Shown here: positions 4,610 to 59,498 of the stretch, one piece after another
Position numbering within the stretch: the first letter of the stretch is position 1
Layout of the letters: the number at the start of each line of letters is the position of its first letter
Source: Amphibalanus amphitrite
Taxonomy: Eukaryota > Arthropoda > Thecostraca > Balanomorpha > Balanidae
Assembly: GCF_019059575.1 (NCBI RefSeq)
Contig: NW_024883395.1
Coordinates: 1 to 64,000, forward strand
Direction: 5' to 3'
Length of the DNA stretch: 64,000 bases
The notes under the pieces: model-generated
What the model saw: only the letters and a program-made list of their open reading frames with translations
What the model was told of the DNA's origin: nothing
The model's database searches: none
Made by a program: the position numbers and the translations under genes

Positions 4610-5617
4610 TTAACCCGCGCACCGACGGGGGTCTGCGCCAACTTAGTACCGACGGGGGGGGGCGGATGACCGCCCCCCCCTGAGATCTCGAGAACGAAGC
4701 AAGATAGCGACAAGCGGTAAACGGCATCGGATACGCACGGTCAAGATCTACAATTTTTACTAAGGTCATTTTCAGGTCAGGTCAAAGATGACGTCACAGG
4801 GGTCGAAAAAGTCAAAATGGCGGCGCTAAATATGGAGAGAGTTTTTCTCGAATAACTTTCGAATTAGTCAAGATAGGAACAAACTAAGGGCATCATCGTG
4901 ATCCTCTCGTCAATCCGCATCGAATGATATATATGTTGACCTCGAAAGGTCAAGGTCAAAGGTTGACCTCAGGTCACGTGACCTCGAGGTCATCATGTAT
5001 ATCATTCGATGCGTCTTGACGAGCTGAACACAATGAGACCATCCACGCGTCTGTATCTTGTTCCTGTACGGAGTTATTGGCCAAAAACCTTTGGTGACCT
5101 TTGATGACGTCACATGACCTCACAGCTGCCCAACAGCAAAACAGACCTCAAGGTAGTGAAGGTTGATCGTATATGAAGTCATGTATGGTATATGGGGCCA
5201 TTCCGACCCGTTTTAGTGGTAAAAACAGGGAGTTGATTTTTCCCCCATTGACTTATAATGGGGAGGTCGCGAAATTGACCTGACCTTAGGTCACCGATAT
5301 CAAAATTCCGAGATATACAAATTGTAGCTACTAATGACCTAATAACATCCTGCGACTTTCAAAGGCCTCCGACATCTACTGTAGCTCTGGCACGGTGACA
5401 AAGTTGCAAAAAAGTGACTTGAGGTTGGGTCATTCAAAGTGACCTGGTGACCTGACCTTGAAAGGTAGGAGGTTCAAACTTGCACACCATGTGTAAAATT
5501 GATAAGGGAATAGTCATACCAAATTTCGCGGCGCTACGCGCCGCGGTTTTCCCGCTATTCGCGAAAAACCTCAGGGGGGGGCGGATATCCGCCCCCCCCC
5601 GTCGGTGCGCGGGTTAA
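4610..5617. mobile_element. TTAA-type transposon D1
   Basis: 1008 bp between TTAA 4610-4613 and 5614-5617. The left end is long: CCCGCGCACCGACGGGG, with GCACCGACGG-like box repeated 27 bp inward (slightly mutated here). The right end is short. The hairpins have loop CGGATATCCG on the right and CGGATGACCG on the left. The centre (about 4908-5020) is an imperfect palindrome: GCATCGAATGATATATATG is mirrored by CATGTATATCATTCGATGC, and between the arms lie AGGTCACGTGACCT (4971-4984) and TGACCTCGAGGTCA (4979-4992). D2 and D3 are close relatives. No ORF is conserved between copies. Confidence 0.88.
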
Positions 5618-6526
5618 CACGCACGGTTAAGTGCTCTTTTCGCTGAAAATATGCGCTCTGGATGACATTAATTACGAAAATTGCGCCTAAATTATCGTTC
5701 ATTTTTGGTGTTTTCACACTTCGTTAAGTCCTCTGTTTGTGCAGGAAATCACCAAAAAACGACCCAAAGGGTGGAAGACGTCCGTCGAAATTCATCTCGC
5801 CTCCCTCAGTTTGAAATATGTAGTTATTATCAAAAAAACTATTTAGAATAGACTAACCGTATTGGTGTTTTTCCAGCCTTGAACGTATCAGGGGGCGTTG
5901 GGCCCTCACACCTTACGGGCGAGGGTTAATGTTTTTAACATGTAAAATTTAGTAAGTATCAGGGAGAATACGAAGCACTGATATTCTTCATGCACCACCA
6001 TGGAATAATAAACAGCTGTAACCGAGTAGGCTAAATATGCTCTATTCCTTCTTTCTTTTTCCTCTGTCCTTTCCCCCCCCCCTCTCTCTCTCTCTCTCTC
6101 TCTCTCTCTCTCTCTCTCTCTCTCTCTCTCTCTCTCTCTCTCTCTCTCTCTCTCTCTCTCCCTCTCTACCTCCCCTGCTGCTATCACATCAGACCAGACT
6201 CCATCAAGAAAGCCGGATTGTTCCCGGACGCCGAGCACGCCATTCACCACGTTTTTGTGCTGCTGTAATTTGCAATTATTGTTGTCTTGCTAATACGACT
6301 GGGCTGTGGAGATGTGATTCGCTTGCCACGTCCCGCCTTCTGCGTCCCTCGTATGCGTTGTCACCTGGATTTCTGTTTTGTGGCGATCTGTCTTTTGTTT
6401 TGTTATCTTTAAAGAGTCCATAAAAATAAGATTATTTTCGGTGCGTTTGGGGTGGATATCTATAGGATATTTCGATGAAGATAAAAAACCATGTGATGGT
6501 TGTGTCAGATTAGTTTTAACAGTAAT
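5618..6526. other. Spacer with a decayed TTAA-element end
   Basis: No gene is seen. A lone decayed tip, TTACGGGCGAGGGTTAA, ends at about 5931 and resembles the long end of the CCCTCGCC families, but its partner is missing. A (CT)n microsatellite follows. The ORFs over the (CT)n are simple-repeat artefacts. Confidence 0.5.
6082..6160. repeat. (CT)n microsatellite
   Basis: About 39 uninterrupted CT units preceded by a run of ten C. Confidence 0.97.
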
Positions 6527-7451
6527 TTAACCCGGCAGTTGCTGGGGTATTTCGCCACCGACCGTTTGCTGGGGGGGGGGGGGCGTTAAACGCCCCCAGC
6601 CGATAACTCGAGAACCAATAGGCGCAGCGAAACGCACGAGGCGGCAAACGAAAAAGCGCGACGAGACGCTTCAGATGAATACTTTAAAGTTGAATTTTGA
6701 GGTCATAGGTCGGGTCAAGGTCAGGTCAAACACCTGAAATCGGGCTTTCAGTAGCATGGACTTCAGGACTTCGCAATGGGCGCCTCTCGCCATAAACTCT
6801 GTCAAAACGGTGCACAATCCATCTTATAATGCCTACAGGAGTGTCAGCTCCATGTAGGGGTCAGTCAAGCATAGGTCAGGGTCAAGGTCAGGTCAACCGG
6901 GTAGGCACATATCCCCGAAAATCAAAACTGATATTCGCAGCCTGTGACACATGTTTTATAGGTAATTTGGGGCGTAGAACACGATGGTGACATTCATTTT
7001 ATCATATGTGTACGTGTTTGGCTCAAAAAGTTCAATTTAAGAAATTAATGTATCATGGTCGTGAAGTAGTCACGAAAAATTGCCAAGATTCAGTTCAAGA
7101 TTATGGAGAAAGCGGAACGATAATCAATAATCGAAGATAGCCATTTAATTGATCATGGTATTGGCAGTCTAATAGCGTTTACAGCATGTCTGTATGTCTA
7201 TTCTGTGATTTTATATGATTTTTTGAACATATGCCGTTTTTGGTCGAAAACTCAGAAATCATGACGTCACTAAAACCTCGATATCTCAAAAATTTTCCGA
7301 CCGATTTTTTTGAAACTTTGTCACAATAAACTTCAATCAATTCCCTACAGGTACCCAAAATTTGGCGCGCCTGCGGCGCGCCGTTTTTATGCTATGGCCC
7401 GGCGAAAAAAGTGGGGGCGTTTAACGCCCCCCCCAGCAACTCGCGGGTTAA
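6527..7451. mobile_element. TTAA-type transposon E1
   Basis: 925 bp between TTAA 6527-6530 and 7448-7451. The left end is long (CCCGGCAGTTGCTGGGG, with TTGCTGGGG repeated 27 bp inward). The right end is short (CCCAGCAACTCGCGGG). Hairpins with loop CGTTAAACG / CGTTTAACG occur at both ends. Next to the right hairpin lies the palindromic block GGCGCGCCTGCGGCGCGCC with the GTACC and AAATTT boxes. The interior has AGGTCA repeats near 6701-6900. The copy at 8956-15069 (E2) is nearly identical and supplies the boundaries independently. Confidence 0.88.
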
Positions 7452-7902
7452 GCGGCATCATTTTACCAACTAGCTTACCGACCATCACCGCATTTTAGCA
7501 GTTGTTTAAACATTACAGGCTGGATTTTAATAATGGCGCCAGGGTTTTAGAACATCATATCGCCTTTCAAGCTTATATTACTCTCAAGTTTTTTATAAAT
7601 ATTATTCAGCGCGTCTTTTGAACCACAGCGTATTTACATAACTGTTTGTAGTGTCTTTTTGCATCCAGGTAATTGCTCAGTAAGCTTCCTATTATTTTGT
7701 TTCATTTGGATTCTCCCACTAATAACTGACACTTGATTATTCGCCACTTCTGAACTCCACTCCCATCGCTCTCCACCGACATTCCGCAAACAATACCAAC
7801 GCTATCAAACTTTGAGTCAAAGAAACAATACCAAAGTAACAACACCTTCGCTGACAATAATACACATAACGTGGTATCTTTTTCAGGTAACTTGAGTATC
7901 TC
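7452..7902. other. Spacer without recognisable genes
   Basis: 450 bp of mixed sequence between E1 and the PIF-like element. I recognise nothing in it. Confidence 0.5.
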
Positions 7903-58168: not shown

Positions 58169-58170
58169 TA

Positions 58171-58622
58171 TATACTTCCTTTGTCATATTATCAGAGAGC
58201 ATCATCATAGACATAGACATAGACATAGACATGTATTTGCGACCCTTCCACATCCATGGTGGCTATTCCGAGACGCGCGTCAATAAGATAGAAACTTGAT
58301 ATACATAAAACACACCTGAGGTAAAATGAACACATTTACAATGCAGCAGGGTACTCACGAAAGGCGATTGTACCACACACACAAACTGTTCAACACCCGC
58401 TCTGACATTCGCCGGCAGCACCTAACCAGTGTCACGCTGTTTCGTTTCACTGTGTTTCGGTTAAAACACTGAAATAAATTCATAACGGCCGTTTTCACGA
58501 CGGAATAGCAGGCATCTATTTGATACCTATTTGATCCTTTGGTTCCTCAGGAATTTTAGTAGTTCTTTTTAGTAGGTTCCCCAGCTTTCGAATGAATGGT
58601 GCGTTAGTTTGCTATTTTTCTA
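58171..58622. other. Spacer with (AGACAT)n
   Basis: A short AGACAT hexamer repeat lies at about 58206-58233. Nothing else is recognised. Confidence 0.5.
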
Positions 58623-59498
58623 TTAACCCTATTAGTGGCAGGCTCCTGGCTACCCCTATTAGTTGCAGGGGGGGGGGGGGGCTGTTTACGACCCTCCCTT
58701 GATATCTCGAGATCTAACGGGCCGATTTTCAAAATTCAAACGGCATTCGATTTCGCTCAACGTGATCTACATTTCTAAAAAAAATGTCAATAGGGGGGTA
58801 GAGGGGGGTAAAAACGGACAAATTGCAGATACATTTTAGACTGTTCATCACGGCCAGGTTTCTGAACCAATCTTAACGCAACTTTTGCCGATCGATAGAG
58901 AATGAACCAGGAATTCACATGGATCCTAAAAATATGCATTTTCAAAAATCATAGGCGGATACAGATCATTGAGATTGGGGGTACACAAAAAGTATAGTAA
59001 ATAAGGTTTTTGTTGGTACTGTTTCTAAAAAGGGTGGTAATGGTCTTGTTATGTTACAATTTTCTTATGAGAGAACGACTACAATTGTATTGGTCATGCA
59101 TAGGCGGTGTCAGGGCACCTATGTTGGGAGGTAAAACATTACCCCCCTTTTTGGACGCCTGGATCCGCCTATTATAGCAAAAACGTGTCAAAAGAGGATG
59201 CACAATAACTGTATATGCTATCACATGATACCTTTCATTCACTGTTCGTAAAACTGGTGCAGCATCGTGATCCTCGCCCAAATGACTCGCTTCACGAATA
59301 GGACCCCCCAATTCCCAGTGCTCTGGAGCCGCTCCTGGTAAAGTTATGAACTTGAAATTTTCAGGGAATGTGCCCAATTTAGTTTTAGGAAAAGTCAGAA
59401 AATTTCAGCATCGTAGCTTCAGCGGTTTCGGAGATATTCCCGAAAAACCTGAGGGGTGGATAAAAACAACAAATATTCCCTGCCACTAATAGGGTTAA
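58623..59498. mobile_element. TTAA-type transposon I2
   Basis: 876 bp, TTAA 58623-58626 and 59495-59498. The left end is long (CCCTATTAGTGGCAGGC, TATTAGT repeated 27 bp inward). The right end is short (CTGCCACTAATAGGG). Reverse orientation of I1 and nearly identical to it, including the AATCATAGGCGGATACAG and GGAGCCGCTCCTGG patches. Its right hairpin is eroded (AACAACAAATATTCC), unlike I1. Confidence 0.9.

Follow-up and report, generated by a model that had tools for sequence, protein, structure and literature searches.

Tip boxes and TTAA elements of the window

A stretch of 64,000 nucleotides of the barnacle Amphibalanus amphitrite (NCBI RefSeq assembly GCF_019059575.1, contig NW_024883395.1, positions 1 to 64,000 of the forward strand; hereafter the window) carries many elements that lie between TTAA sites, start with CCC and possess a short box near the tip, which is doubled at one end only. 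The question raised by this locus is why the two copies of the box lie about 27 bp apart in families whose boxes differ in their letters. The elements are very probably non-autonomous piggyBac-type transposons that keep the layout of cis-acting signals of the Trichoplusia ni piggyBac, the right end of which has the same 27-bp step.

The element search was keyed on TTAACCC and GGGTTAA, and CCC tips and TTAA flanks are thus selection criteria, not independent tests. Each motif occurred 21 times in the whole window, and 36 of the 42 sites were paired by hand into 18 elements, using their position, the fit of a short with a long end, and likeness in box and interior, most pairs following from adjacency. 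By this selection, all 18 elements are flanked by TTAA and all 36 paired ends have CCC tips. Six sites remained unpaired (5929R, 26153L, 36323R, 37563L, 48343R and 49276L). About 13 families with different boxes lie side by side in the window; the family letters of an earlier interpretation made from the letters alone (the sequence-only reading) map only in part onto the element letters used here. In each element, the short end consists of CCC, the box and a G/C palindrome, and the long end of CCC, the box, a spacer of about 17 bp, a second box and the palindrome. The elements, together with the end features of D1, are as follows.

1698..3473, plus strand: C1, long end left, box GGCCGCTGG, spacing 27; split by nested A1
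1971..3150, minus strand: A1, long end right, box GCCGTGCTGG, inner copy CGAGTGCTGG, spacing 27
4610..5617, plus strand: D1, long end left, box GCACCGACGG, spacing 27; 97.9% identical to D3 minus the insert of D3
4619..4628, plus strand: outer tip box of the D1 long end, GCACCGACGG, bp 6-15 from the tip
4646..4655, plus strand: inner box of the D1 long end, GTACCGACGG, one base off the outer copy and 27 bp further in
4655..4680, no strand: palindrome of the D1 long end, GGGGGGGGCGGATGACCGCCCCCCCC, centre at bp 54.5; candidate counterpart of the piggyBac cysteine-rich domain (CRD) site
5574..5599, no strand: palindrome of the D1 short end, GGGGGGGGCGGATATCCGCCCCCCCC, centre at bp 27.5
6527..7451, plus strand: E1, long end left, box AGTTGCTGG, spacing 27
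15623..20298, minus strand: F1, long end right, spacing 27; hosts an inserted element resembling a long interspersed nuclear element (LINE)
20496..21687, plus strand: F2, long end left, spacing 27; outer box GCCCGGCTGG, inner and short-end box GCCCTGCTGG
24833..25490, minus strand: N1, long end right, diverged; spacing 26 within the long end, no match for the short box; TTAA common to G1
25487..27737, plus strand: G1, long end left, box CCCTGGCAGG, spacing 27
26153..26222, plus strand: Q1, unpaired long end within G1, box GCCCCAGTGG/GCCCTAGTGG, spacing 27
36348..37367, minus strand: D2, long end right, spacing 27
38589..44563, minus strand: P1, long end right, diverged; spacing 27 from the short-end match; hosts nested K1 and D3 and an insert of other DNA (about 2 kb)
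41267..42301, plus strand: K1, long end left, spacing 28
42305..44194, plus strand: D3, long end left, spacing 27; split by I2
43154..44040, minus strand: I2, long end right, box TATTAGTGGCAGG, spacing 28; sits at a TTAA of D3
45858..47041, minus strand: H1, long end right, box GCCGGGCCGG, spacing 26 (spacer one base shorter than in H2)
47038..48214, plus strand: H2, long end left, box GCCGGGCCGG, spacing 27; TTAA common to H1
51180..52116, plus strand: L1, long end left, box ACGACCAGG, spacing 27; short end diverged (7/12)
52432..53616, plus strand: M1, long end left, box GCGCGGGGCTGG, spacing 27
58623..59498, plus strand: I1, long end left, box TATTAGTGGCAGG, spacing 27; 95% identical to I2

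The other DNA in P1 is an insert of about 2 kb (38626-40653) that starts about 37 bp from the short-end tip, as judged from a gap in the match between P1 and G1. The open reading frame (ORF) at 39795-40658 within this insert is without a Pfam match.

Spacing between the two box copies

Spacing was measured by taking the 12 bases after the short-end CCC and locating their best recurrence within the long end of the same element. It was 27 bp in 14 of the 18 elements (A1, C1, D1, D2, D3, E1, F1, F2, G1, H2, I1, L1, M1 and P1), 28 bp in I2 and K1, and 26 bp in H1 and N1. The best short-to-long match lay at 26-28 bp in 17 elements, with 7-12 of 12 bases alike; in the exception, N1, the best short-to-long match was 6/12, at 38 and 21, and the value of 26 comes from a long-end self-match of 8/12. 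In H1 the spacer is one base shorter than in its relative H2, and I2 is one base longer than I1. N1, K1, P1 and L1 gave weak values by one or both measures (short-to-long and long-end self), and the P1 long end alone gave a tie between 27 and 31 (7/12 each). In the A/F/H group, the 27 bp are made up of a box of 10 and a spacer of 17.

None of the 18 short ends reached 9/12 at any shift of 15-45, the top value being 8, in F1 and F2. The sequence-only reading had given each element one short and one long end with the box repeated at one end only, and all 18 elements are laid out in this way. Among the unpaired sites, the end at 26153 also had a repeat at 27, and no strong repeat at 26-28 was found at the other five.

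Over the 42 ends, 15 reached at least 9/12 at their best shift, including 12 at 27 and 14 at 26-28. When bp 4-70 of the ends were shuffled (500 rounds; dinucleotide-preserving where a path existed, otherwise plain), a mean of 2.1 ends reached 9/12 at any shift and 0.07 at 27, with a maximum of 1. Among the control flanks of other TTAA sites (n = 410), 22 reached 9/12, none of them at 26-28. A chance repeat is ruled out by the shuffles together with the 410 control flanks. The spacing of 27 bp, described as invariant in the sequence-only reading, therefore stands far above shuffles and controls as the prevailing value, but not as an invariant one.

The same test applied to Trichoplusia ni piggyBac

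The T. ni piggyBac ends, as printed in the relevant passages of PMC11481413, were put through the test used for the window. In the right end, the box AAAGATAATCAT recurs exactly 27 bp inward as an exact 12-bp repeat, which scores 9/12 in the window measure. The left end is printed at a length of 35 bp, too short for a shift of 27, and reached at best 6/12 at the shifts that fit. In the passages of Chen et al. (2020; PMC7351741) dealing with the ends, RE63 differs from LE35 by a 17-bp insertion and a duplication of the box, and the asymmetry is called puzzling and enigmatic. Because the T. ni right end shows the same 27-bp spacing, along with this published insertion and box duplication, the end anatomy of the window elements is piggyBac anatomy; the architecture is of a known kind and the families are new. 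A new and more regular form of asymmetry than that of piggyBac, as proposed in the sequence-only reading, is not supported, as the T. ni right end has the same 27 bp, a 17-bp insertion and a palindrome at nearly the same distance.

Palindrome inward of the box

The G run inward of the box is the first arm of a palindrome made of a G run, a core and a C run (e.g. GGGGGGGGCGGATATCCGCCCCCCCC in D1), a feature absent from the sequence-only reading. In most elements, both ends have it in clear form and resemble each other in the letters of the core; it is weak in N1, K1, I1, I2, H2 and the G1 long end. Within the ranges searched (about bp 20-36 in short ends and about bp 46-66 in long ends), the median distance of the palindrome centre from the tip over the 18 elements was 27.5 bp in short ends and 55.5 bp in long ends, compared to 25.0 (left, short) and 53.0 (right, long) in T. 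ni piggyBac. Single centres range from 23 to 32.5 in short ends and from 53 to 62.5 in long ends, a spread due to the length of the G run, which varies between copies of one family.

Co-change of the box copies between families

The sequence-only reading also held that the box and its partner change together, and this is supported by the comparison of families. For 13 chosen family representatives, the short-end box matched its own long end (tip plus best of shifts 26-28) at 206 of 260 positions, compared to 125 (standard deviation 9.9) with reshuffled long ends, none of 20000 reaching 206; this permutation is partly circular, box likeness having helped the hand pairing. A cleaner view is given by the A/F/H group, the members of which are homologous over their full length, with interiors 80-94% alike (D is 68% like A over 756 bp). 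Between A1 and H1, box positions 5 (T vs G) and 8 (T vs C) changed in all three copies, and three further box positions differ in the inner copy of A1. Independent mutation at about 11% per site would produce two such triple changes very rarely, by estimate about once in a million as an order of magnitude. A private difference is common to F1 and F2, with G at position 5 of the outer box and T in the other two copies. Between A1 and H2, the length of the spacer was kept, with 9 of 17 bases alike.

Box and interior identities were 30/30 and 966/1060 bases for H1 and H2, 21/30 and 945/1060 for A1 and H1, 23/30 and 876/1056 for A1 and F2, and 22/30 and 877/1056 for F2 and H1. A faster evolution of boxes than of interiors is hinted at by A1/H1 only and is not claimed, given the figures for A1/F2 and F2/H1.

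Insertion at TTAA and movement of the elements

When I2 and one TTAA were removed from D3, the D sequence was continuous through a single TTAA and aligned through to D1 and D2, which demonstrates the TTAA target duplication for the one insertion tested. At the I2 target, D2 has the same TTAA, with one base differing just beyond it, and D1 has TTGA. D1, D2 and D3 minus I2 are 96-98% alike, and this likeness points to fairly recent movement of the family.

A single TTAA is common to two elements in two places, N1/G1 (25484-25490) and H1/H2 (47035-47041). In both, the long ends abut head to head (GGGTTAACCC); with two cases, this may be chance.

Proposed mechanism and alternative explanations

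For T. ni piggyBac, the passages on transpososome structure and activity in PMC7351741 report that the DDBD contacts bp 7-16 and that a CRD dimer binds a 19-bp palindrome. Transposition was approximately halved by 5 additional bp in the right end (RE68) and likewise by randomisation of the inner box (RE63mut), LE35/LE35 was inactive with the native transposase, and an outer catalytic dimer and an inner dimer were proposed (Chen et al. 2020, PMC7351741). By analogy, the tip box of the window elements (about bp 6-15) would be the counterpart of the bp 7-16 gripped by the DNA-binding domain of the transposase, and the palindrome that of the 19-bp palindrome on which two cysteine-rich domains bind as a pair. 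LE35 would be the equivalent of the short end, and RE63 that of the long end, in which the box occurs twice, 27 bp apart, before the palindrome. A transposase supplied in trans would place its core domain on the box and its CRD pair on the palindrome. The catalytic dimer would occupy both tips; at the long end, another dimer that does not cut would occupy the inner box and the palindrome, and the spacing of the two dimers would be set by the 27-bp step. The box copies would then change together because all of them must fit one transposase. The sequence-only reading had suggested a protein holding two copies of the box at a set geometry, which fits the losses seen with RE68 and RE63mut, the transposase and its dimers being here transferred from the moth system. 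A distance of 27 bp amounts to about 2.6 helical turns (at 10.5 bp per turn), and the two boxes therefore do not lie on the same face of the DNA; the T. ni variant with 5 additional bp, which has about three turns between the boxes, is worse.

A broader proposal, made tentatively and with slightly less than even confidence, is that the 27-bp step is a fixed dimension of T. ni-type transpososomes from moth to barnacle, while the tip box and the palindrome core turn over in concert. If so, the matched end pairs of the barnacle genome would form a natural series that reveals the recognition code of the two DNA-binding domains, and non-autonomous families would switch from one transposase to another.

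The best-surviving alternative, itself unlikely, is that the common 27 bp reflects ancestry only, with one ancestor carrying the duplication and the distance being under no present constraint. The likeness of the A, F and H interiors and of D to A would agree with it and would explain the agreement of the 18 elements, but the same 27 bp occurs in T. ni piggyBac, a moth element with other box letters, where 5 additional bp cost about half of the activity (passages cited above, PMC7351741), and the spacers have drifted more than the distance, as between A1 and H2. Gene conversion or replication slippage, rather than a shared binding protein, could also have kept the box copies alike; the copies are mostly alike within an element while families differ, and the G run differs in length between copies of one family. 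Such an origin is improbable, as the short-end copy, inverted and about 1 kb away, changes too, and as F1 and F2 both keep the one-base difference of the outer box. Membership of another TTAA-targeting superfamily such as Kolobok, which makes the same TTAA duplication, is very improbable given an end layout that fits piggyBac in three measures and ends that start with CCC (the sites being picked so), not with the purine tips (AG/RR) beside TTAA of that superfamily, which are AG in the ten full-length Xenopus copies described in the passages of PMC6004289 on its ends.

Several observations weigh against a piggyBac layout with a fixed step. Four of the 18 spacings are one base off, so that the distance is not strict, and the 18 elements are not independent data points, many families being related. 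The co-change test has the circularity given above. When palindromes were searched more widely, the strongest one lay elsewhere in several ends, including 1971L, 15623L, 25487L, 43154L, 45858L, 48214R, 58623L and 59498R, and was often a CGGCGGCGC hairpin further in. The GCGT...ACGC of the T. ni palindrome was present only in A1 and E1, with closer placement, and the box letters of the window differ from those of T. ni by a non-systematic comparison. According to the same passages of PMC7351741, a hyperactive transposase moves LE35/LE35 and RE63/RE63, so the long end is not a strict requirement in T. ni; an engineered transposase, in the passages describing it, is active on symmetrised LE35 ends, probably as a dimer. 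Finally, no transposase or remnant was found in the window by tblastn with 120 piggyBac proteins (best E = 0.037) or with a hidden Markov model of 28 of these 120 (best E = 0.66), as expected for non-autonomous copies. A table in PMC10813416 has entries for 5 full-length and 3 intact piggyBac elements in A. amphitrite, taking its columns in their apparent meaning and with miniature inverted-repeat transposable elements (MITEs) left out there; these could be the partners of the window elements.

Other features of the window

The long terminal repeat (LTR) retrotransposon at 9625-14808 has repeats 100% alike over the 300 bases compared and an open ORF of 1497 amino acids with reverse transcriptase, RNase H and integrase; it was probably inserted recently. 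In a second LTR retrotransposon (28909-34591), the repeats are also 100% alike over the 300 bases compared and the coding region is in three ORFs. The LINE-like element inside F1 (16733-19535) possesses an endonuclease ORF and a reverse transcriptase ORF in two pieces. The ORF at 22107-23219 encodes a Pfam 7tm_1 receptor, with a partial pyrokinin-1 receptor-like protein of A. amphitrite as best match (97% identity, 79% of the query covered); this match by itself marks the window as animal DNA, probably of A. amphitrite or a close relative. An 8-bp tandem repeat forms arrays at 48723-49081 and from 50734, for which a repeat finder gave 77 overlapping copies of a 183-nt reference.

Comparison with known systems

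No paper on barnacles, MITEs and TTAA together was found, and no earlier statement of a 27-bp rule for other families was met in titles and abstract openings, few full texts and little of the subscription literature being within this scope. In viral_contigs, the 17 letters of the T. ni tip occurred in 4 stretches, none with a piggyBac-like end; the T. ni piggyBac protein and an interior motif had no match, and the 78 stretches that fit the pattern of an alignment of 28 of the 120 piggyBac proteins included no relative. The D tip had one match in genome_contigs, in a bacterial bin and without the box repeat.

The CMITE elements of Acropora corals are likewise short, non-coding and piggyBac-related, with TTAA duplications, CCC tips and several families, but they are about 100 bp long, and a tip box doubled at one end is not mentioned in the passages on CMITE. 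For beetles, the passages of PMC12732532 describe tip motifs and not a box repeat. The piggyBat of Myotis lucifugus belongs to the same superfamily and, in the passages of PMC11707139 and PMC13405395 on its ends, has box and palindrome units at the left end and two dimers in its transpososome; its left-end units recur every 44 bp, and its right end is without a matching palindrome. The 27-bp step is therefore not a rule of the whole piggyBac superfamily.

With piggyBat laid out otherwise, and the unequal T. ni ends a puzzle to Chen et al. (in those passages of PMC7351741), the occurrence of about 13 barnacle families with the moth geometry and changed letters suggests that this layout is no peculiarity of a single element. 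These families fit the proposed outer and inner dimers and offer a ready set of end variants for tests of spacing and recognition. The window elements differ from T. ni piggyBac in palindrome arms made of long G and C runs, in their many box families, in the four spacings that are one base off and in that no transposase gene was found in them. They share with it the TTAA target, the CCC tips, one short and one long end, a tip box doubled 27 bp inward at one end only with the 17-bp insertion, and a palindrome that follows the box at nearly the same distance.

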